Positions 6,398 to 22,071 of a DNA stretch of 64,000 nucleotides are shown in pieces; position 1 is the first letter of the stretch, and every line of letters begins with the position of its first letter. A program made the position numbers and the translations under genes. This stretch comes from Halochromatium roseum (GTDB taxonomy: Bacteria; Pseudomonadota; Gammaproteobacteria; Chromatiales; Chromatiaceae). The DNA is taken from contig NZ_NHSH01000061.1 of NCBI RefSeq assembly GCF_016653315.1, forward strand, positions 310,001 to 374,000, given 5' to 3'. A model generated the notes under the pieces. The model ran no database searches, was not told where the DNA came from, and was given only the letters and a program-made list of their open reading frames with translations.

Positions 6398-8256
6398 TTA
6401 GCGCGCATTCAGCACCGCGCCCCAGAGCAGCAGGGAGATGACCAGCAAAGACAGGCCAGCCACTGGCCACTGGCGCAAGCCGCGATCCAGCGCCTCGACA
6501 GCGGCGCCAATCGCGCTCATCAGACGCCTGAACGGCGCGCCCCAGGCCAGGATGTCACCGGCTGGCAGCCGCGGCAGTCGCTCACCCCAGCGCCAGAGCG
6601 CCAGCATCGCGCCGCTCCCAAGCAATAAGGGCCAACTCGCCTTCCAGAGATCGACGGGGCTGATCGAGCGCGCCAGCCAGACCTGGCTGTTCCCAAGACC
6701 GAGCCAGGGCAGCAGCAGCCAGGGCAGCAACAGCGCGGCAAGCGCCATCAGCCACCAGGTCAGCAGGCGGCGGAACAGACCCCTGGGACGCGCATTCAGC
6801 GCCTCGCGGCTGATCTGACTCAGGCCCGCTTCACCTGGACCGATCTCACCCGGACTGATCTCACCCGGACTGCTCTCACCTGGGCCGATCTCATCGGGTC
6901 TGGTCACGGCGGTGCTTGCCGCGGGCAGGGTCGTGGTCGCGGTGCCGGAGTTCAGCGCCGTTTGATCACCGCTGACCCAGAGTCGGCGCAGGAAATGCAG
7001 CATCAGCAGCGTCGACCCCGCCGCCGAGAGCGCCGCCAGCAGACCGAGCAAGGGCGTCTCAAAGAGCGGCTTCAGCGCCAGCTTGGCCGCCGCGCCCCCG
7101 GTCAACGGTAGACCGGCGATGCCGAGCCCGACCAGCGCCGCCGGCGGCAGCACCAGCCAGCGCCGTCGGGTGACGCCATCAGCGATGACACCGAGACCGA
7201 GGAAAAGCGCGCCCTTGGCGAGCAGATGATGCGCCGCGTAGAGGGTCAGCAAGAGCACCGCGGTCGCTTCTCCAGCGCGCAAGGCAAGCCCAGTCGCCGC
7301 CGCGATCAGCCCCATCTGACTGATGCTCGAATAGGCCAGCACGGTCTTGGCGTTACGCTGAGTGATGCCGATCGCGACGCCATAGAAGGCGCTGATCAAC
7401 CCCAGCACGATCAAAAGCCCACTCCAAGCCGGCGCCCCCGCCTCGAACGGCAAGAAGCGGATCAGACCGATCACACCGGCCTTGACCGCGGCACCGCTGA
7501 GCACCGCCGCCGCCGGAACAGGCACCGCGGTGTAGGCCAGCGGCATCCAGACATGGCCAGGGACCAGGGCGATCTTGAGCGCGAAGCCCAACAGCAGCAG
7601 TGCCATGCTCAGCTCGGACCAGGCTGACGCTGGGAGCGAGGCAACAACGCTGCTGATCGCCAGACTCGGCTCCGGGCTCGCCGCCGAGAGCAGTGCAAAG
7701 GCCAGCAGCAAAGCAATCTCGCCGAGGATTGCGAGCAGCAGGTAGAGGCCGGTCGCGCGGCGCGCGAAGGCGGTGCCCTCGTGCGCGATCAGACCGAAGG
7801 CGGCCAGGCTGACCAGCCCATAGAACAGGTAGAAGCTGACCAGATCGGCGGCGATGAACACGCCGAGGCTACCGGTCAGGGTCAGCAGCCAGAACAGCGT
7901 GAAGCGACCTCGATGCGGTGAGGCCTGCAGCATTGGCGCGGCGTAGAGTCCGCCCGCGGCCCAGAGCAGCGCGGCAACCCCGAGCAGCACGGCGCCAGGG
8001 CGGTCGACGACCAGGCCGATCGCAAGGCCGTTGGGATCGAACAGCAGCGCAATCGCGGCAACCTCACCGTTGGCGATATCGCCCTGGCCAAGAACCAGCA
8101 TCGCGACGATCGCAGCCGCCAACGCCGGCAGCGGAATCAGCGCAAGCAGAACCCAAAGGCGCTCGCGAATCGGCTGCGCAAAACAGCCCAGCACAGCCAG
8201 GGCCGGCGTCGCCAGCCCGACGCCAACCAACAGCTCGGCCATCGGCAGCGAGGCGA

Positions 8257-8260
<4 letters not shown>
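6398..8260 (-). CDS. Second MrpD/NuoL-like antiporter subunit of the Mnh operon
   Basis: Polytopic membrane subunit (620 residues) of the proton-conducting NADH dehydrogenase/Mrp family. The core motif PGHVWMPLAYTAVPVPAAAVLSG followed by KAGVIGLIRFLP is diagnostic of this family's antiporter-like subunits, as is TVLAYSSISQMG further on. The start ATG overlaps the stop of the preceding mnhD (ATGA), and this is the last gene of the operon. In classic Mrp complexes the corresponding slot is filled by the N-terminal half of the long MrpA; here a separate MrpD-like protein takes its place. A hydrophilic insertion near residues 440-480, made of pentapeptide repeats (PGEIS and variants), separates the last helices and is probably a flexible cytoplasmic or periplasmic loop. 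Confidence 0.88.
6830..6904 (-). repeat. 15-nt tandem repeat inside the MrpD-like gene
   Basis: Five 15-base units of the form ctcacccggactgat with point differences. On the coding strand they read as a PGE(I/S)(S/G) pentapeptide repeat. The unit length keeps the reading frame. Confidence 0.85.
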
Positions 8261-10319
<2,059 letters not shown>

Positions 10320-10320
<1 letters not shown>

Positions 10321-10640
10321 CAGGACTCCCCCTCTGGCGCATCCTCGACATCATCAAGCGCTGCGCTCTCCCCCAAGCGCACCAGCAACCCAACCGCCAG
10401 CGCGGTCGCCGCAAAGGCGACGACCAAGCCAGTGATGACCAAGGCCTGAGGGACCGGATCACCACCAAAACCCGCCCCGGCACCACGCTGGGCGATGACA
10501 CCGAAGAGCAGAAAGACGCCACTGCCGAGCAGATTGAAGGCCAGGATCTTGCGCAGCGCGCCAAGGCCGACGATGACGCCATAGAGGCCGAGGCCGACCA
10601 GCAGCGAGCCCAAGAGTCCGTAGAAGGTCACTGAACTCAT
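10320..10640 (-). CDS. mnhC: Na+/H+ antiporter subunit MnhC (MrpC, NuoK-like)
   Basis: A protein of 106 residues with three membrane helices. SLLVGLGLYGVIVG, ILAFNLLGSGVFLLFGVIA and DPVPQALVITGLVVAFAATA match MrpC/NuoK, including the DPVPQALVLTAIVI-type third helix that is diagnostic for MrpC. The ATG at 10640 overlaps the stop of the MnhB gene, and its TGA overlaps the start of mnhD, so translation is coupled in both directions. An acidic tail (LDDVEDAPEGES) ends the protein. An open frame continues far upstream in this register, but only because it lies antisense or out of frame to neighbouring GC-rich genes. Confidence 0.93.
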
Positions 10641-11593
10641 GGTCGATCCTCCCGCGCGTCCGGCAGCCCGGCCAGGATCAAGCCCAGCACCACCGCCACC
10701 GAGACCAGCAACACCGCCTCGATCAGCAAGATCAGCGGCTTCTCGACACCGAGCGGATAGGCCAGGAAGTCCCCGGCTAGCCAGATCCCGGCCAGGCCAA
10801 TGGCGAAGAACACCAGCGGCCCGATCACCGCCAGCAGCCGGGGCAACCGTTGTGTCGCCGCTGGCGGTTGCATGACGCCCGCGACCATCGCCAAGGCCCA
10901 GACCCCGGCGAGCAAGGCGCCGGCCTGGAACTTGCCGCCCGGGAGACTGGCGCCGATCCAGAACAGATGCAGCGCCACCAGGATGACCAGCGGCAACAGG
11001 AGCCGCGCGAGCAGCACCAGTGGCGGCGACGGATGCGGCAGCGGCAGCCACGCCAAGGGTTGCCGCCAGCTCGCGTCGGGGATCAGCGACCAGAACGCGA
11101 TCAGGGCCAGCACCAGCACCACGGTCTCGAAGAGGGTATCGACCGCGCGGAAGGCCATCAGCACCGCCGTGACCGGGTTCTCGACCGCCGTCGCTGGCAG
11201 CTCCGCCGCCACCGTCGCGGCCAGCGAGGGCGCCGGGTCTGGCAGGCTCAGCACCACCGTGGCCAGCCCAAGCGCCACCGCCGCTGACAGCAGCGCCGCG
11301 AGCAGATGCAGCGGCCAGCGGCGCGCGCTCCGAGCGACGGGCGCTGGCGGCACCCGGGTGCTGGCGCCGAGCACCAGTAAGCCGATCAGGCCACCGCCGA
11401 TCGCCGCCTCGGTGAGCGCGATGTCGGGTGCATCCAGGCGAATCCAAACGATCGCCATCAGCAGGCCGTAGACGAGAAAGCCGATCGCCGCGCGCAGCGC
11501 ATCGGCGGTGAGGATGACCCAGAGGCCGAGCAGCAGCGCCGTGACCGCGAGCACGACGTCCGCCAGCGAGGCGAGATCGAGGATGGCGCTCAT
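10637..11593 (-). CDS. mnhB: Fused DUF4040 (MrpA C-terminal-like) + MnhB subunit
   Basis: A protein of 318 residues joining two antiporter modules. Residues about 5-75 (ADALRAAIGFLVYGLLMAIVW, DIALTEAAIGGGLIGLLVLGA) are the DUF4040/MbhD-like domain that ends long MrpA proteins. An intermediate helical region with MAFRAVDTLFETVVLVLALIAF resembles the MbhE part. Residues about 190-310 (LARLLLPLVILVALHLFWIGASLPGGKFQAG) are MnhB. The fusion is common in operons that lack a full-length MrpA, and it explains how the MrpA C-terminal functions are kept here. Start and stop overlap neighbouring genes by four bases. Confidence 0.9.
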   Translation of the reverse strand: MSAILDLASLADVVLAVTALLLGLWVILTADALRAAIGFLVYGLLMAIVWIRLDAPDIALTEAAIGGGLIGLLVLGASTRVPPAPVARSARRWPLHLLAALLSAAVALGLATVVLSLPDPAPSLAATVAAELPATAVENPVTAVLMAFRAVDTLFETVVLVLALIAFWSLIPDASWRQPLAWLPLPHPSPPLVLLARLLLPLVILVALHLFWIGASLPGGKFQAGALLAGVWALAMVAGVMQPPAATQRLPRLLAVIGPLVFFAIGLAGIWLAGDFLAYPLGVEKPLILLIEAVLLVSVAVVLGLILAGLPDAREDRP

Positions 11594-12087
11594 CGGCAGG
11601 CATCCTCGGGCTGATGCTCGCCGAGTTCGACCTCGGCGGCAGCTTTGGCCGAAGCCCTCGTAGCCGTGTCATCAGCATTCGCCGCATTGGATGCGTTGAC
11701 GATGGCAAGATCGCCCGCGGCGGCGCCATCGGTCGCCAAATCATCCGGCGCTGGAAGGAGATCGCCACCGTCGCCGAACTCAGCCATGTCGCCGTCACTC
11801 TCGGCTTCAGCGGCAAACTGGGTGGCCACGATCAACTGTCCGGCGATACTACCGCCAATCAGCATCAGCAGCCAGAGCGCGAGGAGCTTGAGCGCGGTGA
11901 ACGGCCAGGACACCTGTGGCAGCAGCCCAATGACGACCAGTCCTAGGCCGAGTGCGTCGGCCTTAGTCAGCGCATGCAGGCGCGAGAGCGGATCAGGGAA
12001 CCGCAACAGCCCGACCACGCCGGCGAGAAAGAACAGCAGTCCGAGCGAGACGACGACCAGGGTAAACAGACTCGCCAGATCGCTCAT
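11590..12087 (-). CDS. mnhG: Na+/H+ antiporter subunit MnhG (MrpG)
   Basis: A protein of 165 residues. The first 95 are a standard MnhG: SLGLLFFLAGVVGLLRFPDPLSRLHALTKADALGLGLVVIG and then three helices. The remaining 70 residues are an Ala/Asp-rich acidic tail not usual for the family. The ATG at 12087 is preceded by GAGGAG eight bases upstream, which fixes the start. The gene overlaps the MnhB fusion gene by four bases and follows mnhF after a 16-base gap. Confidence 0.92.
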   Translation of the reverse strand: MSDLASLFTLVVVSLGLLFFLAGVVGLLRFPDPLSRLHALTKADALGLGLVVIGLLPQVSWPFTALKLLALWLLMLIGGSIAGQLIVATQFAAEAESDGDMAEFGDGGDLLPAPDDLATDGAAAGDLAIVNASNAANADDTATRASAKAAAEVELGEHQPEDACR

Positions 12088-12103: not shown

Positions 12104-12406
12104 TCATCGGCGTTGCTCCGGCTGCCTTGCTTGCCGACGCGCCGCGAATCGCCGGCGCAGCGGCTCGGCAAAGGCGACGGTGACAAAGGTCGCGAGCAGC
12201 GTGAGCATGAGGGCCAGGTCAATCACGCCCGGTCTTCCGGTAGCAACACCGAACAAGAGTAAGGCGGCGATGCCAGCCGTGCCCAGCAGCTGCTCGGCCA
12301 TCACCCAGTCCACCGCCCGATGGCTCAACAGCAACCGCGCCAGCGCCACGATGATGATCACCAGGATGAACAGCGCCGCGCCCAGCAGAAACGCGGACAG
12401 GCTCAT
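12104..12406 (-). CDS. mnhF: Na+/H+ antiporter subunit MnhF (MrpF)
   Basis: A 100-residue, three-helix membrane protein. MSLSAFLLGAALFILVIIIV, then DWVMAEQLLGTAGIAALLLFG and VIDLALMLTLLATFVTVAFAE are the MrpF pattern, with the conserved D in helix 3. A basic Arg-rich tail follows. The start overlaps the DUF1576-MnhE stop as ATGA. Confidence 0.92.
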   Translation of the reverse strand: MSLSAFLLGAALFILVIIIVALARLLLSHRAVDWVMAEQLLGTAGIAALLLFGVATGRPGVIDLALMLTLLATFVTVAFAEPLRRRFAARRQARQPEQRR

Positions 12407-14460
12407 GACGCCCCCTCCTCGCGATACAGGCGCAACAGCAGACGCTCATCCCGCGCCAACCCCGCCGCGACCGGCGTGCGGGTATCGAGACAGTGGAAGA
12501 CCAGTCGGCCTTCGGCATCGGTGCCGGCCGCAATGGCGCCCGGCGATGCGCTGGCAAAGGTTTGCAGGATCGCCCGCTGATGCGCTCGACGGAGGCGGGT
12601 CGTAAAGACGATATAGCCAGGTCGCAGCGGCAGACGCGGATCGAAGGCGCGCCGGGCGACATCGATCCCACCGACCACCGACTGCACCAAAAATCGCCCA
12701 ATCAGCGACATCAGCGCGCGGAGATGCCATGGACGCGAGCTCGGCGGCAGCACCCACAGACTGATCCAGGTCGCCATGGCGGTGGCGATGAGGGCGATGG
12801 CCAGGTCAGCGGCGATTTGGGCGCTGCCCCCTATCCCGATCGCAGCGCCGGAGCCGGTGGTCAGTGCGCCGACGCTGCTCTCCAGGAGCCTCCGCAGCGC
12901 CCCCAGATCCGGCGCCGACAGCAGCAACCAGATGACCAGGAAGAAGAGCGCCCGCAGCAGTACGGCACCCAGCCAGCGTCCGCGTCCCAGCCTGTCGGCC
13001 TGCGTCGTTCGGCCACCGCCACCTCCAGAGACAGAAACAAGAAAATCATCAAGACCGCCCTCGACCGACGAGACTTGCTCTCGGCCTCCGAGGCCGGTTG
13101 GCGGCTCCCCGTCACTCGCGTCAGCCGAGGTCCGCGCCATCTCGCCACCGGCGGCTAGCACGGGCTTTCGCCCAGCCAACTCCCCACGAGCACGGATCGC
13201 GAGGATCACCGGCACCAGAATCGAGGCGACGATGCCCGCGGCAAAGCCATTGTTGTAGAGATTCAGCCCGCCGTGCACCACGCCCACGCTGAGCGCCGCC
13301 GAGGAATGCACGAAGCCGGCAACGATCCCCCAGTGCCAACCGAAGTAACCGGCAATCGGCGCCAGATTGGTGCCGAACAGCGCCGCGAGCTGCACCGATG
13401 GGTCCGCCACTCCCCAGGGCTTGACCAATGATCCGAGGAACACGCCGGCGATGATCGGCAGGATATTGCGCGGATGCTTGCCGAAGGCGGCAAAGCCGAC
13501 GATCGAGAACAGCGCGCCGATCGTCGGCCCGTTCAGGTCGCCACCGATGGCGAGGATATAGACTAGCCCAATGCCGCCGCTCAGCCCCATGTTGATCAGG
13601 GTCGCGCCCAGTCCGGCGCTGGCCAGAAAGTCGCTCGGCGCCTGCCCGGACGCACGCATCAACCGCCAGAAGCGCGCGACCCCATGCCGATCGATGATCA
13701 GACCGAGCAGCACCATCGACAGCAGCAGCCCGCCGACAAAGGAGCCCAACAGCAGGTTATTGCCGGTGGTCCAGATGAACACCGGATCGGCGACGAAGCC
13801 ATAGGAGGCATAGATCGCCACCACCAGGGTACCGACCAGGCCCGCGGTGAAGCCCATGTTATAGAGCGCGAAGCCATCGTGGGCACGAAACAGCTGCGCC
13901 GCGGCCGCCGGCAGGATGAAGCCGATCGACAGCCCAGTGACGATGGCCAACGGCAGGCTGACGCTGAACGGCAGCGTGGTGCTGAACAGGATCTCGCTGA
14001 CGATCGGTGATAACGCAATGCCGAAGAAGGCGGTATTGATATGGGTCGAAAACGGCTGGCCGCGCCAGCGCGCATGCAGCGCAACACCGGCGATGATGAA
14101 CCAGACGTTGAGCAGGTTCTTGCCGAACAGCCCGAAGCCGAGCACCAGGAACAGCGCGGCGATGGCCGTACCCGTCATCGATACGCGATTCAGTGCGTAG
14201 ATCAGGCAAGCCACCAGCGTCAACAGACCGGTGCTGACCAAGGCCGCGCCGATGCCGCCAACGCCCATGTAATCGGTCAGCAGCGTATCGCGTGAGATGA
14301 GGATCGCCCCTAGCCCGCTCAGGACGTCGCTCGGGGCATCGATCAGCAGCCCGAACAGCACGAAGGCCAAGGCGTAGCCGGCCACGACGAGCAAGACGAC
14401 CCGATCCGCGGACGCGACCGGCGCATCGGTTGCCGAAGGTAAGGCGTGGTCGGTTCCCAT
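12403..14460 (-). CDS. DUF1576 membrane protein fused to antiporter subunit MnhE
   Basis: First gene of the Mrp operon; 685 residues. Residues about 20-430 form a polytopic DUF1576 protein built as two related halves. GFGLFGKNLLNVWFIIAGV (109-126) recurs as GFAAFGKHPRNILPIIAGV (322-340), and ALYNMGFTAGLVGT (198-211) recurs as NLYNNGFAAGIVAS (400-413). Residues 431-495 are a polar, Gly-rich linker. Residues about 496-685 are MnhE: helices RALFFLVIWLLLS and WISLWVLPPSSRPW, then the family signature QSVVGGIDVARRAFDPRLPLRPG and a GTDAEGRLVFHCLDT segment. DUF1576 has no known function; fusion to an antiporter subunit suggests a role in cation or substrate transport linked to the complex. The ATG at 14460 begins a hydrophilic 20-residue leader. 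I see no stop between the two parts, so this is one protein. Confidence 0.85.
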   Translation of the reverse strand: MGTDHALPSATDAPVASADRVVLLVVAGYALAFVLFGLLIDAPSDVLSGLGAILISRDTLLTDYMGVGGIGAALVSTGLLTLVACLIYALNRVSMTGTAIAALFLVLGFGLFGKNLLNVWFIIAGVALHARWRGQPFSTHINTAFFGIALSPIVSEILFSTTLPFSVSLPLAIVTGLSIGFILPAAAAQLFRAHDGFALYNMGFTAGLVGTLVVAIYASYGFVADPVFIWTTGNNLLLGSFVGGLLLSMVLLGLIIDRHGVARFWRLMRASGQAPSDFLASAGLGATLINMGLSGGIGLVYILAIGGDLNGPTIGALFSIVGFAAFGKHPRNILPIIAGVFLGSLVKPWGVADPSVQLAALFGTNLAPIAGYFGWHWGIVAGFVHSSAALSVGVVHGGLNLYNNGFAAGIVASILVPVILAIRARGELAGRKPVLAAGGEMARTSADASDGEPPTGLGGREQVSSVEGGLDDFLVSVSGGGGGRTTQADRLGRGRWLGAVLLRALFFLVIWLLLSAPDLGALRRLLESSVGALTTGSGAAIGIGGSAQIAADLAIALIATAMATWISLWVLPPSSRPWHLRALMSLIGRFLVQSVVGGIDVARRAFDPRLPLRPGYIVFTTRLRRAHQRAILQTFASASPGAIAAGTDAEGRLVFHCLDTRTPVAAGLARDERLLLRLYREEGAS

Positions 14461-15088: not shown

Positions 15089-15391
15089 ATGCATCTCACG
15101 CCGAGAGAATTCGACAAATTGCTTGTTTATATGATGGCCGATGTCGCGCAAAAGCGCCGCGACAAGGGCCTCAAGCTCAATCACCCCGAGGCCGTCGCAC
15201 TGATCTCGTCGATTGCGCTCGACGGCGCGCGGGCTGGCAAGACCATCGAAGAGGTCACCCAAGAGGCCGGCGCCGTGCTCGGCAAGGACGACGTCATGGA
15301 GGGTGTCGCCGATCTGATCCCGTCGGTGCAGATCGAGGCCGTCTTCACCGACGGCAGCCGCTTGGTCACCGTGCACTCACCGATTCAGTAG
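15089..15391 (+). CDS. ureA: Urease gamma subunit UreA
   Basis: A 100-residue subunit of the nickel enzyme that hydrolyses urea to ammonia and carbamate. [58 protein letters not shown]-like text and the terminal LVTVHSPIQ are canonical. The ATG is preceded by GAGGAA at a suitable distance. First gene of the ureABCEFGD cluster; ureB follows 35 bases later. Confidence 0.98.
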
Positions 15392-15426
15392 CGATCTTAC
15401 TTTCGTAGAGACCTTCTTAGGAGGCG

Positions 15427-15867
15427 ATGATGGCAGGAGTGAAAGCAGGACCTCAGATCGCGGCCGACGTTGATCCGATGACCGCCGAGGTTGAACTGGG
15501 CGGCTATGTCTGCGCCAGTGAGCCGGTAACGTTCAACGAGGGCCGACCGGTCACCAAGCTGAAGGTCCGCAATACCGGCGACCGACCGATCCAGATCGGC
15601 TCGCATTTCCATTTCTTCGAGGTCAACCGGGCGATGGACTTCGAGCGCGCGGCGGCCTTCGGTCAGCACCTGAACATCCCCGCCTCCACCGCGCTGCGCT
15701 TCGAGCCCGGCGACGAGCGCGAGGTCGAGCTGGTGCCCTACGCCGGTCGGCGCGAGGTCTACGGCTTCAACAATCTGGTCGACGGCGCGACCTCGGGCGA
15801 ATTCGCCGAGCCACAGAAGACCAAGGCGCTCGCCGCCATCGCACAGCGCGGCTTCCGCTCGAGCTAA
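15427..15867 (+). CDS. ureB: Urease beta subunit UreB
   Basis: Structural subunit that packs around UreC. 146 residues, longer than the usual 100-110 because of an N-terminal extension of about 20 residues ([12 protein letters not shown]) and a longer tail. Core motifs are clear: [23 protein letters not shown]-type strand order, RALDFERA-like [30 protein letters not shown], and [20 protein letters not shown] lies just upstream of two consecutive ATG codons (15427 and 15430); the second has the better spacing. A 278-base gap separates it from ureC, unusual for this operon. Confidence 0.96.
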
Positions 15868-16084
15868 TCGAGCCAAGGCGATTGCTGTCCAGGCGTATAC
15901 CGACTTGCTGCTCTGTTCGCTCGCTTTCTTCGTCGCACCGCTGGTCGCACCGCTGGTCACAGCGCCTGGCCATGCTCCCGGCGACGATCCTCGAAGGCAA
16001 GCGAATACCCTGCGCAATGCGATACGCACTGTTCTGGCAATCGCCTAAATCGTCGCGCCGACTTCGGCCCAATTGCTTCTGCCA

Positions 16085-16119
<35 letters not shown>

Positions 16120-16145
16120 TCCAGAGACCAGAGGACACCTCATCC

Positions 16146-17867
16146 ATGGCAACGCTCTCACGCAACGAACACGCCGGCCTCTTCGGCCCCACCACCGGCG
16201 ACCGTATCCGCCTCGGCGATACCAATCTCTTCGTCGAGATCGAGCGCGATCTGCGCGGCCCCTCCGGCGACGAGATCGTCTTCGGCGGCGGCAAGAGCCT
16301 GCGCGAAGGCATGGGCATGGACAACCAGCTCACGCGCGCCGGCGGCGCCCCGGACCTGGTGATCACCAATGTCACCATCATCGACGGCGTGCTCGGCGTG
16401 GTGAAGGCCGACGTCGGCATCAAGGACGGGCGCATCTGCGGTATCGGCAAGGCCGGCAATCCGCGGGTGATGGATGGCATCACACCGGGGCTCGAGTGCG
16501 GCCTGGCCACCGATGCGATCTCCGGCGCGCACCTGATCCTGACCGCCGCCGGCGTCGATTCGCACATCCACTTCATCTCGCCGCAGCAGGCCTGGGCGGC
16601 GCTCTCCAACGGCACCACGACGCTGATCGGCGGCGGCACCGGTCCGTCGGACGGCTCCAACGCGACGACCGTGACCCCCGGCCCCGGCAACATCCACAAC
16701 ATGCTGCGCGCCTTCGAGGGCTGGCCCATGAACATCGGCATCCTCGCCAAGGGCCACGGCCATGGCAAGGCGGCGCTGGTCGAGCAGGTCGAGGCCGGCG
16801 CGGTCGGCTTCAAATGCCACGAGGACTGGGGCACCACCCCGGCGGTGCTGCGCTCGGCGCTGACCGTCGCCGACGAGATGGACGTGCAGGTCTGCATGCA
16901 CACCGACACCTTGAACGAGTCCGGCTTCGTCGAGGACTCGATCGCCGCCTTCGAGGGGCGCACCATCCACTCGTTCCACACCGAGGGCTCGGGCGGCGGT
17001 CACGCACCGGACATCATCAAGGTCTCCGGGCTGCCCAACGTCCTGCCCGGCTCGACCAATCCGACCCTGCCGTACGGCATCAACTCGCAGGCCGAGCTGT
17101 ACGACATGATCATGGTCTGCCATCACCTGAACCCGGACATCCCCTCGGACGTCGCCTTCACCGAGAGCCGCATCCGCGCCGAGACCATCGCCGCCGAGAA
17201 CGTGCTGCACGACCTCGGCGTGATCTCGATCTTCTCCAGCGACTCGCAGGCGATGGGCCGCATCGGTGAATGCTGGCTGCGCTGCATCCAGACCGCCGAC
17301 GCGATGAAGACCGGTCGCGGCAAGCTGCCCGAGGACGCGCCTGGCAACGACAACTTCCGCGTGCTGCGCTATGTCTCGAAGATCACCATCAACCCGGCCA
17401 TCGCGCACGGGATCTCGCATCTGCTCGGCTCGGTCGAGGTCGGCAAGATCGCCGATCTGGTGCTCTGGGAGCCCGGCTTCTTCGGCGCCAAGCCGAAGCT
17501 TGTGCTCAAGAACGGCATGATCAGCTGGTCGCTGATGGGCGACCCGAACGCCTCGCTGCCGACGCCACAGCCGGTCTACTACCGGCCGATGTTTGGCGCC
17601 ATGGGCCTGTCACAGACCGACAACGGCCTGACCTTCGTCTCCGCGGCGGCCCATGATGCCGGCATTAAGGAACGCTTGGGTCTGCGGCGCCAGGTCGAGC
17701 CGATCCGCAACACGCGCAAGATCGGCAAGGCCGACATGGTGCGCAACAGCGGCACGCCGACCATTGAGGTCGATTCGGAGACCTTCGCGGTGACGGTCGA
17801 TGGCGTGCATGCGACCGTCGAGCCGCTGCGTACCGTGTCGTTGAATCAGAAGTACTTCTTTAGTTGA
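16146..17867 (+). CDS. ureC: Urease alpha subunit UreC (catalytic)
   Basis: Catalytic subunit, 573 residues (family about 567-570). All dinickel-site elements are present: His140 and His142 in [13 protein letters not shown], the Lys223 to be carbamylated in GFKCHEDWG, His252 in CMHTDTLNE, the His-rich [16 protein letters not shown], the mobile flap Cys325-His326 in [10 protein letters not shown], and Asp366 in SSDSQAMGR. Start ATG follows [38 protein letters not shown] is a standard N-terminus. The enzyme is predicted active once nickel is inserted by UreE/F/G/D encoded downstream. Confidence 0.99.
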
Positions 17868-17890
17868 GTCCGAACAGGAATAGAGCCTGC

Positions 17891-18619
17891 ATGATCCTCA
17901 TTGAGACCATCCTCGGTAACGCCGCCGCGCCGGAATGGGCCGACCGGCTGACATCGGCGAGTGTCGATACGCTCGAGCTCGACCATTGGGAGGCGCAGAA
18001 GAGCCGTTTTCGGAAACGCTCGGCGGGCGGCGCGGAGCTGGCGATCTCGCTTGACCGAGGCAGTTTCATCCGCGACGGTGACGTACTGCGCTGGGATGCC
18101 GAGCAACAGACGGCGTTGTTGGCGCGCATCCGGCTGCGCGATGTGATGATGATCGAGTTGGGCGGACTACTCGGGGATGGCGCAAACGGCGCTCGCGGGA
18201 ACGGCGCGATTCCCGATACACAGACGGAGATGACAGATGCAGATGCTGCGATTCATGGCGTGAACACCGCGGATCAAAGCACGCCAGCCGCCGCTGAGCT
18301 GTTTGCGCTGCGCACCTGCGTCGAGCTTGGGCATGCGCTCGGTAACCAACATTGGCCAGCGCTGGTCAAGGGCACCTGCGTCTACGTGCCGCTGACCGTC
18401 GACCGCAAGGTGATGAACTCGGTGATGAAGACGCATGGCTTCGAGGGCATTGAATACTGCTTCGTGCCCGGCTCCGAGATCGTGCCCTATCTGGCGCCGC
18501 ATGAATCGCGGCGACTGTTTGGTGCCGCCGAGGGGGCTGTGCATAGCCATAGCCATAGCCATAGCCATAGCCATAGTCATAGCCATAGCCATAGCGCCGG
18601 CTCCGGCCAGTATGAATGA
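17891..18619 (+). CDS. ureE: Urease nickel metallochaperone UreE with His-Ser tail
   Basis: Delivers nickel to the UreG/UreF/UreD complex. 242 residues versus about 150-160 usually. The N-terminal domain (KSRFRKRSAGGAELAISLDRG, GDVLRWD) and the C-terminal metal-binding domain (CVELGHALGNQHWPA, GFEGIEYCFVPGSEIVPYL) are normal. The extra length is an insertion of about 45 polar residues between the two domains and a tail of nine His-Ser dipeptides, which should bind extra Ni2+. ATG at 17891 is preferred over an in-frame TTG at 17864 that overlaps the ureC stop. Its 3' end overlaps the ureF start by eight bases. Confidence 0.95.
   Translation: MILIETILGNAAAPEWADRLTSASVDTLELDHWEAQKSRFRKRSAGGAELAISLDRGSFIRDGDVLRWDAEQQTALLARIRLRDVMMIELGGLLGDGANGARGNGAIPDTQTEMTDADAAIHGVNTADQSTPAAAELFALRTCVELGHALGNQHWPALVKGTCVYVPLTVDRKVMNSVMKTHGFEGIEYCFVPGSEIVPYLAPHESRRLFGAAEGAVHSHSHSHSHSHSHSHSHSAGSGQYE
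18542..18595 (+). repeat. (catagc)9 repeat encoding the UreE His-Ser tail
   Basis: Nine hexamers, eight of them identical and one catagt, encode nine His-Ser dipeptides. Copy-number change would alter the number of nickel ligands without shifting frame. Confidence 0.95.
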
Positions 18620-19301
18620 GGCAGCCCGGCTGCTGCGCGCGCTGCAGTTCGGCGACTCGGTGTTTCCGGTCGGCGGCTTTGCCTTCTCGGCGGGTCTGGA
18701 GACCGCGATCGCCGAGCGGGTGGTGACCGATGTCGAGAGTCTGAGCGCCTACACCCGCACCGCACTCGAACAGGCGACGCGCGGCGACAGCGTCGGCCTG
18801 ATCTGGGCGCATCGCGCGGCGCTGGCCGAGGATCTGACCCAGCTGGGGCAGATTGATGCCCAGGTCTATGCGCGCAAGCTCTCCGGCGAGACCCGCACCA
18901 TGAGCGTGCGGATGGGCAAGAAGTTCACCGAGCTGAGCGCCGAGATCCTCGAGGCGCCCCTGCTCCAGAGCTGGCGTGAGCAGATCGCCAACGGCGCGAC
19001 GCCCGGCTGTTATCCGGTCGCGCTCGGGATCAATTTCGCGGTGCAGGGGCTCTCGGCGCGAGACGCCTTCGCGGTGCATCACTACGGCGTCGCGGCGATG
19101 ATCCTGAGCGCGGCGCTGCGACTGATGCGCATCGACCATGTCGAGACCCAGCAGAGGCTGTTCGCGCTCTGTACCGGGACCGATGCCGATTATGAAGCCG
19201 CCGCGGTCATGCCATTGTCCGACATGGCCGGCTTCGCACCCGTGACCGAGATCCTCGCCGCCGCTCACGTCAAAGCGAGGGTGCGGCTCTTTATGAGCTG
19301 A
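18612..19301 (+). CDS. ureF: Urease accessory protein UreF
   Basis: 229-residue helical accessory protein that acts with UreD and UreG in nickel insertion. Characteristic [20 protein letters not shown] (FPxGxFxxSxGLE motif) and [12 protein letters not shown] are clear. The ATG at 18612 sits inside the last codons of ureE, so translation is coupled. The frame is open further upstream only because the His-Ser repeat reads as Ala-Ile in this register. Confidence 0.96.
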
Positions 19302-19349
19302 TCCCGAACTGATCCCGAGCTGCACACCAGCCGAGCCCGCGGGCGCGGA

Positions 19350-19388
19350 CAGCTTCCACTGCCAGCTTCTACTGCCAGCTTCTACTGC
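19350..19388. repeat. 13-nt tandem repeat in the ureF-ureG gap
   Basis: Three copies of cagcttctactgc (the first has cca for cta) in the 100-base gap before ureG. A shorter duplication tgatcccga(a/g) lies just upstream. Confidence 0.85.
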
Positions 19389-19401
19389 CAAAGGTAAACC
19401 C

Positions 19402-20046
19402 ATGCCCAAAAAGATCACCCGCATCGGCGTCGGCGGCCCGGTCGGCTCTGGCAAGACCGCCATCGTCGAGGCCATCACGCCGCAGTTGCTTGATCTTGGC
19501 ATCAAGGTGCTGATCATCACCAACGATGTGGTGACCACCGAGGATGCCAAGCAGGTGCAGCGCACGCTGAAAGGCGTGATGCTCGAGCAACACATCCTCG
19601 GCGTCGAGACCGGCGCCTGCCCGCATACCGCGGTACGCGAAGACCCGAGCATGAATCTGGCCGCGGTCGAGGACATGGAGGCGCGCTTTCCGGACACCGA
19701 TGTGGTGCTGATCGAAAGCGGTGGCGATAACCTCACCCTGACCTTCTCGCCAGCGCTGGTCGATTTCTTCATCTATGTGATCGATGTCGCCGCCGGTGAC
19801 AAGATCCCGCGCAAGAACGGCCCCGGCATCACCCAGTCCGACATCCTGGTCATCAACAAAACCGATCTCGCCCCGCATGTCGGTGCCGATCTCGGCGTGA
19901 TGGAGCGCGATTCGCGGCTGATGCGCGGCGACAAGCCCTTTCTATTCACCAACTGCAAGACGGGCGAAGGCATCCCCGAGCTGGTCGCGCGGATCCGTTC
20001 CGATCTGCTGTTCGACCTGAGGCTCGACGAGCCCGCGTCGGCCTGA
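19402..20046 (+). CDS. ureG: Urease accessory GTPase UreG
   Basis: SIMIBI-class GTPase of 214 residues that powers nickel insertion. P-loop [10 protein letters not shown] at residues 11-20; the switch/metal motif CPHTAVRED includes the Cys-Pro-His that binds nickel at the dimer interface; base-recognition [13 protein letters not shown] is intact. [13 protein letters not shown] is the usual start. The TGA overlaps the ureD start (TGATG). Confidence 0.98.
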
Positions 20047-21038
20047 TGGACGGTCGCGCGCAGACCCAGTCGACGGCCCTTGCCTTTCCAGCGCTTGGCT
20101 TCGTCGGCGATCGCAATGCCGCCATCCGGCTCGGACGCGAGGCCAGCGAACTGGCCGCCTTTCAGGACGAGCCGGCCCAGATGGCGAGCGCCGCAATCGG
20201 CAAGAACGGCTTCCTGCGCCTCGGCTTCGAGCGCCGCGGCCCGCGCACCATCCTCGCCGAGTTGGATCGGCGCATCCCGGCGCTGGCGCAGCGCACCCTC
20301 TATCCCGAGCAGGCCCTGCCCGATCTGGCCTGGCTGTTCATGATCACCACCACCGGCTGCCTGCTGCAGGGCGATCGGATGGCACTCGAGATCGGCCTCG
20401 GCCCGCAAGCGCGCGCCCACATCACCACCCAGTCGGCGACCAAGGTCCACTCGATGGACGCCAACTATGCCGCCCAAACCCAGCAGATCGCGCTCGCCGA
20501 GGACGCCTATCTCGAGCTGTTGCCAGAGCCGCTCATCCCGCATCGACGGGCGCGCTTCATCAGCGAGACCCGCATCCAACTCGCCGACAGCGCCACCCTG
20601 CTCTACGCCGAGATCCTGCAGCCCGGCCGCAAGCACCATCATCCGGACGAGTGCTTTGGCGCCACGCTCTTGTCATTGGCGACGACGGCAACCCGTCCCG
20701 ACGGCCGCCTGCTGTTCAGCGAGAAGCTGGTGATCGAGCCCGAGCGTCAGGCACTGCGCCAGACCGGCGTGATGGACGGCTTCGACGTCTTCGGCAACCT
20801 GATGCTGCTGACGCCGCCGGCGGTGGCCGACCGCGTCGACGCGCGCATTGGCGCCGCGGTCGATCAGGTCGGCGGGCTGGCCTTCGGCGCCTGCCGGCTA
20901 CCCAACGACGCCGGCCTCATCATCAAGGTCTTGGCGCGCGAGACCGAGCAGGTCAAGGCAAAGCTACACGAGTATTGGGCGATCGTGCGCGAAGAGGCCA
21001 CCGGCACCGCGCTCTCGCCGCCCTTCTTCTGGCGTTGA
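20046..21038 (+). CDS. ureD: Urease accessory protein UreD (UreH)
   Basis: Scaffold protein (330 residues) that binds apo-urease with UreF and UreG. Recognisable segments: GFLRLGFERRGPRTILAEL, FMITTTGCLLQGDRM, QARAHITTQSATKVHSMD, YLELLPEPLIPHRRARF and FGACRLPNDAGLIIKVLA. Placed last in the accessory set here, whereas ureD often comes first in proteobacterial urease operons. Directly follows ureG with a one-base overlap. Confidence 0.95.
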   Translation: MDGRAQTQSTALAFPALGFVGDRNAAIRLGREASELAAFQDEPAQMASAAIGKNGFLRLGFERRGPRTILAELDRRIPALAQRTLYPEQALPDLAWLFMITTTGCLLQGDRMALEIGLGPQARAHITTQSATKVHSMDANYAAQTQQIALAEDAYLELLPEPLIPHRRARFISETRIQLADSATLLYAEILQPGRKHHHPDECFGATLLSLATTATRPDGRLLFSEKLVIEPERQALRQTGVMDGFDVFGNLMLLTPPAVADRVDARIGAAVDQVGGLAFGACRLPNDAGLIIKVLARETEQVKAKLHEYWAIVREEATGTALSPPFFWR

Positions 21039-21084: not shown

Positions 21085-22071
21085 ATGATGAATGAGCCTG
21101 ATACCGCGCAACCAGCCAACGGTTGGGAAAGGGCTTGCCGCTCGGCCTCCCCGCTGCGCTTCATCGACTTCAATCTGCGGAGTATCGGGCAGGTGATGTT
21201 TCAGGACAACCCGCTCTCGGGGTTGTTCTTCTTTGCCGCCATCGGCTGGGGCGCGTTCATCGCCGGGGCGCTTGAGATCGCGATCGCCGGTCTGCTCGCG
21301 CTGCTCGTCGCCTCGCTGACGGCACTTTGGCTGCGGGTCGAGACCGCGCCATTACACGCCGGTCTCTATGGCTTCAATGCCTATCTGCTCGGCATCGCCT
21401 TGGCCACCTTTCTCGACCCCTCGCCGCTGCTTTGGGTCTATGTCGTGCTTGGCGGCGCGGTCTCGGTGATCGCCACCCGAGCGGCGACCCGGGTCATGCT
21501 GACCTGGGGAATCTCGGCGCTGACCGCGCCCTTCATCCTCATCAGCTGGCTCCTACTGCTGTCCTCGAACGGATTCTCCAGCGTGCCGGCCGGGGCCTTG
21601 CCGACCAGTGGCCTGATTCAGCCGATCCCGGCCGAGGCCGCCGATCCGCTGCGCATCCTCGACTTCCTCCAGGGCATCCTGATCAGCGTTTCGCAGGTGT
21701 TCGTGAAGGGTGACGGCATCGCCGCGCTGCTGATCCTGATCGGGCTCGCCATTGGCTCCATCGCCGCCGCTGGCTATGCGCTGGCCGCGGCCTTGATCTC
21801 GGTGGTCGTCGCGCATCTGCTGGGCGCGGAAAGCCAGCTCATCACCGGCGGCCTGTTCGGCTTCAACCCGATCCTCACCGCGATCGCGGTCGGCACCGTC
21901 TTCGCGCGTCCCGGTCTGCGCTCTGGCCTCTATGCGCTGCTCGCGACCATCGTCACCGTCCTCGTGCAAGGCGCGATGGTCGCCGTCGCCACGCCCTTTG
22001 CCATCCCCACGCTCACCGCCTCATTCGTGCTGGTCACTTGGCTGTTTTTGCTGGCCAAGCCAGCGCCCTGA
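21085..22071 (+). CDS. Urea transporter (UT/SLC14 family channel)
   Basis: Membrane channel for passive urea uptake, 328 residues with about ten helices in two related halves. Family features: MFQDNPLSGLFFFAAI near the start, AGLYGFNAYLLGIALATFL in the first half and GGLFGFNPILTAIAVGTVF in the second, the repeat that lines the urea pore. GGGAGG precedes the double ATG at 21085/21088. Forty-six bases after ureD, so it is almost certainly part of the urease operon and supplies the substrate. Confidence 0.93.
   Translation: MMNEPDTAQPANGWERACRSASPLRFIDFNLRSIGQVMFQDNPLSGLFFFAAIGWGAFIAGALEIAIAGLLALLVASLTALWLRVETAPLHAGLYGFNAYLLGIALATFLDPSPLLWVYVVLGGAVSVIATRAATRVMLTWGISALTAPFILISWLLLLSSNGFSSVPAGALPTSGLIQPIPAEAADPLRILDFLQGILISVSQVFVKGDGIAALLILIGLAIGSIAAAGYALAAALISVVVAHLLGAESQLITGGLFGFNPILTAIAVGTVFARPGLRSGLYALLATIVTVLVQGAMVAVATPFAIPTLTASFVLVTWLFLLAKPAP

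Follow-up and report, generated by a model that had tools for sequence, protein, structure and literature searches.

A DUF1576-MnhE fusion gene in an Mrp-type operon of Halochromatium roseum and the predicted channel-like fold of its DUF1576 half

A stretch of 64,000 nucleotides from Halochromatium roseum (the window) carries one gene (12403..14460, minus strand, 685 aa) that joins a DUF1576 protein to MnhE at the head of an Mrp-type operon, and the same fusion is found in four other genomes. Comparison of these sequences shows that the fusion is real at the gene level and that selection has maintained it; the gene thus encodes a true membrane protein of two parts. New in this analysis are the internal duplication of DUF1576, its predicted fold and its urea-linked gene context. 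Taken together, the data point, with a probability of roughly 0.55, to a small-solute channel of urea-nitrogen metabolism that is tethered to the tip of an Mrp antiporter; we infer translation as one chain, co-assembly, the substrate and the coupling.

The fusion gene and its Mrp operon

The fusion frame begins with ATG and contains no internal stop codon. Its product matched PF07613 (DUF1576) with 340.5 bits (cut-off 25) in two stretches, which scored 180 and 175.3 bits and of which residues 44-217 matched best, and PF01899 (MNHE) with 55.3 bits (cut-off 27) at residues 550-666. These were the only two Pfam families matched at E <= 0.001; neither PF03253 (UT) nor PF00909 (Amt) was among them, nor was any signalling domain found among the Pfam matches. 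The stop codon of the fusion gene overlaps the start codon of mnhF in an ATGA at 12406-12403. Thus, the single open frame with a complete DUF1576 and a complete MnhE followed by ATGA-coupled mnhF, described in the earlier note, was confirmed, and the domain limits given there (residues 20-430 and 496-685) are correct to within a few residues.

The fusion genes of the five genomes, all Chromatiaceae, were compared pairwise. The dN/dS values of 0.08-0.19 for the DUF1576 half and 0.14-0.43 for the MnhE half indicate purifying selection on both halves. The Gly/Ser/charged linker between them (residues about 431-491; 12988..13170, minus strand) evolves fast, with dN/dS up to about 1; it is mostly coil, and the model pLDDT is about 26-37 across most of it (first 60 residues). 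The five linkers are unlike in sequence and all are open and in frame despite many indels. Beyond the last DUF1576 helix, the four linkers examined (that of locus L048 was left out) do not all share any start codon: from residue 419 to 500 the sequence of H. glycolicum (L046) lacks one, and an ATG at residue 441 is common to the window and T. marina. The fusion is more than a chance event: homology extends over both halves within a single frame, and the fusion recurs with other linkers in four further genomes. A sequencing error or a hidden stop in the linker, set beforehand as a refutation of the fusion, was not found in the window, and an assembly or sequencing artefact has a negligible probability, as the five assemblies differ in their linkers, contain no stops and show low dN/dS in both halves; no point in favour of an artefact was found.

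The MnhE half (12403..12987, minus strand) has two TM helices, a third helix and a cytoplasmic domain with SPG/HCLD motifs. It is alignable over its length with stand-alone MnhE and matches the solved MrpE-type chains 7qru_E, 7d3u_E and 6u8y_A (E 1.7e-5 to 6.3e-5). In an alignment of 17 rows, P150, G151 and H166 are invariant, and the residue before PG is S in the window and T in 12 rows. The best NCBIfam MrpE model gave 38.5 bits and did not reach its curated cut-off of 212. The MnhE half is thus assigned from its sequence as a divergent MrpE. Four other mnhE loci are present in the genome of the window.

Six further genes follow on the minus strand. They are mnhF (12104..12406; PF04066), mnhG (11590..12087; PF03334, with an internal ATG of a 210-aa frame as the start), a gene for a joined MbhD and MnhB subunit that corresponds to the C-terminal part of MrpA plus MrpB (10637..11593; PF13244 and PF04039, with NF009161 best in NCBIfam), mnhC (10320..10640; PF00420 within the frame), and the genes for the proton-antiporter subunit MnhD1 (8257..10320; PF00361) and a second subunit of this type, MnhD2 (6398..8260). 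The NCBIfam matches of MnhD2 are of the MrpD/NuoM/hydrogenase-4B/MrpA type, all under curated cut-offs. The genes of subunits E, F, G, B and C thus lie together with those of D-type subunits, at least one of which belongs to the CPA3 gene set. A full-length MrpA is absent from the operon; MrpA is read as split rather than absent, because the MbhD+MnhB protein and two proton-antiporter-type subunits are present. The proposal that DUF1576 compensates for a missing MrpA is therefore not supported and was rejected. The operon is assigned by its gene content as that of a putative seven-gene, split-MrpA cation/proton antiporter.

Mrp clusters of groups 2 and 3 likewise hold homologues of MnhB, C, D, E, F and G in one operon. 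An irregular gene order in group 3 and an MrpA-MrpB fusion in group 2 are known (PMC5703873, available text). The H. roseum operon differs from these clusters in its split MrpA, with MbhD joined to MnhB and two MnhD-like subunits, in an MrpE with an N-terminal DUF1576 channel-like domain of 430 aa, and in the divergent urease cluster beside it.

DUF1576 loci in other genomes and their urea gene context

The survey found 80 + 87 DUF1576 loci, of which 80 were kept in addition to the window; two weak matches (G373 and G388) were left aside. DUF1576 is usually a stand-alone protein, as had been stated earlier, and is fused in only 5 of the 81 loci. Within the order, the fusions account for 5 of the 13 DUF1576-bearing genomes among 210. 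The earlier note also asked for DUF1576 fused to or adjoining mrp genes elsewhere, and this is the case in other genomes: an mnhE gene lies nearby in 16 of the 32 loci of an aerobe/phototroph branch and is missing in 64 of all 80, and the mnhE genes near DUF1576 come from two distant Mrp (MnhE) lineages. In three MAG loci DUF1576 and mnhE adjoin in the same order as separate genes, which overlap by 4 bases in L051 and are separated by about 130 bases in L050. T. marina has kept the fusion, but its mnhF breaks off after about 25 codons, and the 4.8 kb from there to the contig end contain no other mrp gene. Halochromatium A10 has kept an unfused DUF1576, with a deletion scar where mrp would be.

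These loci bear on an alternative to which we assign a real chance, clearly below even, namely that the fusion arose from adjacency and entails little coupling. Two co-expressed neighbouring membrane genes would have been joined via stop loss and a frame change, the halves would work independently, and the join would fix only expression or membrane targeting. The separate genes in the MAG loci, the fast evolution and low model confidence of the linker, the survival of DUF1576 after loss of the adjacent mrp genes and the confinement of the fusions to one family are consistent with this explanation. However, all five linkers have stayed open through their indels, and random fusion does not explain why DUF1576 lies near mrp genes of at least two unrelated Mrp lineages.

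With the window-seeded models, urease, UT and mnhE genes were found near DUF1576 in none of the 48 more distant loci, which are mostly those of anaerobes. In 41 of them a small protein is encoded immediately downstream of DUF1576 (gap -56 to +30 bases); of four such proteins scanned, one matches HATPase_c_3, whereas the remaining ones appear degenerate. This signalling-like pairing would suit a DUF1576 that serves as a regulator or sensor, in the manner of Amt-type sensors, and gates the antiporter without being a conduit. We regard such a role as very doubtful for the fusion protein, which has no signalling domain in Pfam; moreover, clustering found the small partner in 0 of the 32 aerobe/phototroph-branch loci. 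The window copy resembles the rest of the DUF1576 family in being full-length with two repeats, and differs in being fused to MrpE, whereas most members stand alone and the distant ones have the small partner. An apparent N-terminal extension of DUF1576 in L109 was judged by eye to be a non-coding stop-free stretch.

Divergent from the fusion operon is a second urease cluster (15089..21038, plus strand), homologues of which lie beside DUF1576 in other genomes. The ureC gene (16146-17867, plus strand) was identified by a PF00449 match (G000:C61:326152-326520); the genes that we take to be ureA (15089), ureG (19402-20046) and the other ure genes were named by position. A urea transporter (UT) gene follows (21085..22071, plus strand), with 252.6 bits to PF03253 and 274.2 bits to TIGR03441 (cut-off 274.6). 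Urease or UT genes are near DUF1576 in 21 of the 32 aerobe/phototroph-branch loci. In Variovorax the order is UT-DUF1576-ureA..ureC, with UT and HupE/UreJ identified by Pfam, and the Kaistia locus has NikR and CbiM/CbiQ/ABC genes. Several relatives have kept DUF1576 with the local urease gone or broken, and in T. marina a urease alpha match is lacking altogether. The urease/UT context, the superfamily fold described below and the relatives that retain DUF1576 with most or all adjacent mrp genes gone go beyond the earlier note.

No riboswitch or leader was found just upstream of DUF1576 on the same strand in 28 of the 80 loci and in positions 1-26000 of the window. TPP and 6S matches lie upstream on the opposite strand in L103, and 5S rRNA and tRNA genes upstream of DUF1576 in L090. 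The RF02514 matches lie within ureC in antisense orientation and probably stem from similarity of the coding sequence.

Predicted fold of the DUF1576 half

The AlphaFold2 model of DUF1576 is confident (pLDDT 92.2, pTM 0.91), and with hhalign it delimits repeat 1 at residues about 20-219 (13804..14403, minus strand); repeat 2, at residues about 235-429 (13174..13758, minus strand), includes an FGKH loop and the H.G.NLYNNGF motif. On our reading of the model, repeat 1 would comprise five TM helices and a re-entrant FGKN loop. The repeats align with each other at E 3.8e-34 and 30% identity (hhalign), which indicates an internal duplication. The full-length fusion model has a pLDDT of 70.0 and a pTM of 0.63, and its MnhE half, modelled from five rows, has a low pLDDT. 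Among 60 aligned sequences, window copy included, the motifs FGKN/FGKH, TDY/SDF and H.G..LYN.GF are conserved, and the Asp, Lys and His residues in pseudo-symmetric positions show little or no variation.

In a structural comparison with candidates from Foldseek's 1000 highest, all 50 of the matches listed were Amt/Rh/Mep2, UT, NqrB or RnfD (VIA Z 8.9-13.4). Of the 67 chains at Z>=5, 61 were also at Z>=8. The top match had a Z of 13.4 (rmsd 4.7, 248 aligned), a value near 13 being no proof of homology alone, as Z 13-14 is attainable by helical folds without proven kinship. Foldseek itself, with a limit of E 10, gave 216 matches, of which not one reached E <= 0.001; its top ranks were MFS-type transporters (TM 0.13-0.17), and its best useful match was UT1 6qd5 (probability 0.80, TM 0.35/0.41). 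The DUF1576 profile gave nothing up to E 1 against PDB sequences. With hhalign, DUF1576 reached a probability of <=4.5% against Amt (8 rows), UT (17) and NqrB (5), a comparison that is powerless, since the known families are not matched to one another either (UT vs Amt, UT vs NqrB, Amt vs NqrB; <=0.8%). The 8 and 5 profile rows are what remained after the frame rule dropped 7 of 15 Amt and 7 of 12 NqrB loci, including all on the other strand.

The DUF1576 half is thus predicted from the model to be a channel-like protein of the Amt/Rh/UT/NqrB fold with two related 5-TM repeats, and the "new ion or solute path" proposed earlier is plausible on this fold. DUF1576 shares the predicted fold and the duplicated repeats with Amt/Rh and UT channels, and differs in having conserved motifs of its own; no sequence homology to them was detected in the powerless profile comparison.

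In a further alternative, the DUF1576 half would be an NqrB/RnfD-like Na+ (or NH4+) path of Mrp, an extra coupled ion route that overlaps the main proposal. The predicted fold is common to NqrB (Z 9.0) and RnfD (Z 8.9), channel-like subunits that are reported as ion-translocating modules of other complexes (PMC10643135, PMC9588780; both in part); the near-invariant Asp, Lys and His and the location of MrpE at the proposed cation entry would fit such a path as well. Nevertheless, we hold it to be improbable: Amt/Rh and UT outscore NqrB, the complexes of NqrB and RnfD are redox-driven whereas here a complex-I-type antiporter is encoded and its operon has no redox partner, and most DUF1576 loci lack a nearby mnhE.

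Proposed role of the fusion protein

A tethered small-solute channel remains the preferred reading. The N-terminal half would be an Amt/Rh/UT-fold channel-like protein of a DUF1576 branch that now appears to be part of urea metabolism (urease, UT and, in some genomes, nickel supply). It would most likely pass or sense a small species of urea-nitrogen turnover, for which ammonium/ammonia is the first candidate, followed by urea or by a cation of the kind that NqrB handles. The C-terminal half, as an intact MrpE, would dock at the tip of the seven-gene split-MrpA antiporter, and the unstructured cytoplasmic linker of variable length would hold the channel beside the antiporter's cytoplasmic cation-entry end, so that channel and antiporter would be produced in equal numbers and stay together. 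While urea hydrolysis uses up protons and sets ammonium free, the antiporter could then provide H+ and take away a cation close to the channel.

Two published descriptions favour the proposal: MrpE caps the Mrp complex where cations are proposed to enter from the cytoplasm (PMC7419157, in part), and NqrB is described as close in resemblance to urea and ammonium transporters (PMC10643135). The Na+ path of Mrp is debated, and some models make no use of MrpE (PMC9568556, in part); in B. subtilis MrpE is reported to be dispensable (PMC5703873, in part). Both points were counted against the proposal, as were the retention of DUF1576 without an adjacent mrp operon in T. marina and Halochromatium A10, the lost or broken local urease in relatives, the 48 distant loci with none of the three gene types nearby, the negative profile comparison with UT, Amt and NqrB, the weak Foldseek result and the four other mnhE loci of the genome.

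An unlikely extension is that the joined machine is an ion-coupled ammonium (or urea) transporter, which would be the first Amt/UT-fold module in a complex-I-type (Mrp) antiporter. DUF1576 would feed or drain ammonium at the MrpE cation entry, and Mrp would swap ammonium or Na+ for H+. If true, such a machine would be a counterpart of NqrB/RnfD in Na+ pumps, and it would keep pH and ammonium in balance while urea is hydrolysed.

The fusion is a naturally occurring covalent hint that a channel-like protein may sit on the MrpE end of the Mrp antiporter, and thus bears on the role of MrpE and on a possible connection of urea/ammonium handling with Na+/H+ exchange. In some purple sulfur bacteria it lies beside a second urease set, which suggests that urea use is linked to ion balance. 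Ion pumps contain the Amt/UT fold repeatedly (NqrB, RnfD), and its association with a relative of complex I would be a further case of interest for evolution. DUF1576, a family with no assigned function, is not mentioned by name in the literature searched; with a predicted fold and a gene context, its function is therefore testable. DUF1576 is also present in three plasmid records, at 36-41% identity.

DUF1576-MnhE fusion gene

The minus-strand frame at 12403–14460 is open over 685 codons and encodes a complete DUF1576 domain (Pfam 340.5 bits, in two stretches) joined to MnhE (55.3 bits), and separate MnhE proteins align along the full MnhE half. Its stop codon overlaps the mnhF start in the sequence ATGA. 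The fusion observed in the earlier note was thus correct, and the linker contains neither a stop codon nor a sequencing error, linkers being in frame in all five genomes where the fusion occurs. The remaining operon genes are mnhG, a joined MbhD-MnhB gene, mnhC and genes for two proton-antiporter-type subunits. Given MbhD-MnhB and these two subunits, the proposal in the same note that DUF1576 compensates for an incomplete MrpA is unsupported. In its C-terminal third, MnhD1 (8257–10320) has a Gly/Ser repeat of low complexity (GSGSGSG...) and a long extension beyond the antiporter domain.

On the plus strand, the genes of a urease cluster and of a urea transporter point away from the operon. Towards the end of the presumed ureE, a repeat in 17864–18619 and 18435–19301 encodes (His-Ser)n, and in another frame it reads Ala-Ile. 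Matches to Rfam RF02514 (5' ureB sRNA) lie antisense within ureC in the window (16299–16599, minus strand) and at L062, L063, L051 and L052, and are probably due to coding similarity.

DUF1576 was found in 13 of 210 genomes covering the whole order, and in a phylum sample of 398 genomes none but the window's own carried it above the cut-off. Five of the 13 have the fusion, namely the window's genome, Lamprobacter modestohalophilus, Halochromatium glycolicum, Thiohalocapsa marina and one Thiohalocapsa MAG. Their linkers span roughly 30–80 residues, and likeness was seen only between those of the window and T. marina, which also have in common an ATG at residue 441. The four linkers compared (window, L. 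modestohalophilus, H. glycolicum and T. marina) have no start codon beyond the last DUF1576 helix common to all, and that of H. glycolicum contains no ATG, GTG or TTG from residue 419 to residue 500. Pairwise dN/dS values were 0.08–0.19 for the DUF1576 half and 0.14–0.43 for the MnhE half (six pairs each), and 0.43–1.01 for the linker (20–58 codons, computable for four of the six pairs). Hence, both halves are under selection and the linker drifts in frame. The in-frame linkers, selection on both halves and full-length MnhE alignment suggest that the fusion would be made as one chain in the cell.

Predicted fold of DUF1576

The structure of DUF1576, modelled from 60 aligned sequences (the window copy plus 59 from the 80 loci of the survey below), had a pLDDT of 92.2 and a pTM of 0.91. 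The protein consists of two duplicate halves of ~200 residues (hhalign E 3.8e-34, 30% identity), in which the motifs TDY and FGKN pair with SDF and FGKH, respectively, and H.G..LYN.GF is present in both. In the model, FGKN and FGKH each lie in a coil flanked by two short helices, which suggests that these are re-entrant loops with one invariant lysine each.

Foldseek alone gave nothing at E <= 0.001, its top rows being MFS-type transporters with TM 0.13–0.17. On structural alignment of the 999 chains selected by Foldseek, 61 reached Z 8 and just six more Z 5. All 50 matches listed were ammonium channels (Amt/Rh/Mep2), urea transporters (UT), NqrB or RnfD, with Z 8.9–13.4 over ~230–270 residues and rmsd 4.2–6.4. 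Sequence profiles of DUF1576 revealed no match to UT, Amt or NqrB, and pairs among these three were equally silent. NqrB and RnfD structures have been described as similar to urea and ammonium transporters (PMC10643135, PMC9588780). DUF1576 likely has an Amt/Rh/UT/NqrB-type fold (probability roughly 0.85).

Urea and mrp genes near DUF1576

The gene context was surveyed at 80 kept loci of 167 found. Thirty-two, proteobacteria and cyanobacteria among them, share at least 56% identity with the window copy; the other 48 share no more than 51%, and their hosts belong mostly to lineages known to be anaerobic. Genes for a urea transporter or urease, in part fragmentary, are near DUF1576 in 21 of the 32 closer loci, mnhE in 16, and either in 23; with models seeded from the window's genes, neither kind was found near any of the 48 more distant loci. 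These counts are neither complete nor independent, given the window-seeded models, unequal flank lengths and related loci. With 3–6 mnhE loci per genome (17 relatives) and genomes of ~3–7 Mb, mnhE is expected within 10 kb by chance in roughly 2% of cases. Three further loci outside the counts have mnhE (L023), a urea transporter (L027) or neither (L024).

In Variovorax, the urea transporter, DUF1576 and ureA genes are consecutive, and Pfam names the transporter and a HupE/UreJ gene. In four Kaistia strains and a related MAG, NikR adjoins DUF1576 with a different mrp operon just past it, and Kaistia terrae has a CbiM/CbiQ/ABC set upstream. Since long, fully supported branches separate Kaistia/Camelimonas from Chromatiaceae/Burkholderiales MnhE (17-row tree), the DUF1576-mrp association probably arose at least twice. 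At the spirochaete loci L097 (genes named by Pfam) and L101 (by likeness to L097), DUF1576 is followed by a small protein, a patatin and MbhE/MnhC-type genes.

Of the 48 more distant loci, 41 encode a protein of 113–128 aa directly 3' of DUF1576 (gap -56 to +30 bases; L073:11281–11622, L096:3571–3915 and 39 further loci). Among four scanned, that of L096 matches HATPase_c_3, one matches PDDEXK_4 below the cut-off and two have no match. Their alignment suggests degenerate forms of one family, and DUF1576 with this protein would be a putative DUF1576-ATPase-like pair. At L053, L054, L061 and L066 (Cyanobium, Lamprocystis), DUF1576 has a nearby gene that belongs to one cluster, and both cluster members scanned match Na/Pi symporter models; a search for urease and urea transporter genes at these loci gave nothing. 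The plasmid-collection records CP141730.1, NZ_CP084075.1 and NZ_CP116511.1 contain DUF1576 at 36–41% identity.

Two genes for urease alpha are present in the window's genome. One is of a common type that 16 of the 17 genomes searched carry; the window type was found only in this genome, G587 and G588. As some relatives retain ureA or urea-transporter fragments beside DUF1576, the second urease seems often to have been lost and DUF1576 kept.

Origin and possible role of the fusion, and apparent loss of mrp genes

A search for fused or adjacent genes elsewhere, as the earlier note proposed, gave, besides the four further fusions, three MAG loci with the window's gene order and separate DUF1576 and mnhE genes: L050 and L099 (Burkholderiales), and L051. 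The two genes overlap by 4 bases in L051 and are ~130 bases apart in L050; the DUF1576 gene of L099 is frameshifted. In all three, urease and urea transporter genes are divergent, as in the window. In the DUF1576 tree (66 rows), four fused copies and the unfused copy of Halochromatium A10 form one supported clade and the fused H. glycolicum copy is placed nearby without resolution, so one or two fusion origins are possible.

In Halochromatium A10, the intact DUF1576 gene is followed at L045:2037–2168 by fragments of MnhE (E 5e-4) and MbhD (E 0.002) joined to each other, an apparent deletion scar of a lost mrp operon. T. marina has kept the fusion; its mnhF is cut after ~25 codons and continues into an ion-channel domain (PF07885, Ion_trans_2; L044:11947–12708), and the 4.8 kb from there to the contig end contain no other mrp gene. 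This chimera is apparently a remnant of an mrp deletion. Both cases speak against the view that DUF1576 depends strictly on this Mrp complex.

MrpE is described as capping the Mrp complex where cations are proposed to enter on the cytoplasmic side, and as making most of the dimer interface, with its P114 influencing Na+ handling (PMC7419157); alternative models of the Na+ path have also been proposed (PMC9568556). MrpE of B. subtilis was reported to be dispensable for transport, and the T113A substitution in that of B. pseudofirmus to abolish antiport (PMC5703873). As MrpE comprises two TM helices and its C-domain is cytoplasmic, the C-terminal end of the fused DUF1576 should be cytoplasmic too, which is what a UT-like topology with 10 TM helices would predict. 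From the MrpE position and this orientation, we infer that DUF1576 may co-assemble with the antiporter as a tethered channel at its MrpE end. During urea hydrolysis, the channel would handle ammonium, urea or a cation, and the antiporter, coupled to it, would balance H+. The finding is of more interest than the earlier note stated, for reasons other than MrpA replacement: a family with a predicted channel fold and a link to urea genes recurs beside Mrp operons and is joined to MrpE in five genomes.

Ammonium transporter matches in the window's genome (G000, contig C42, 48547–49725) and their counterparts in G098, G119, G137, G546 and G547 lie in open frames of 1144–1185 aa; hence, these six genomes probably encode Amt joined to another, large domain.
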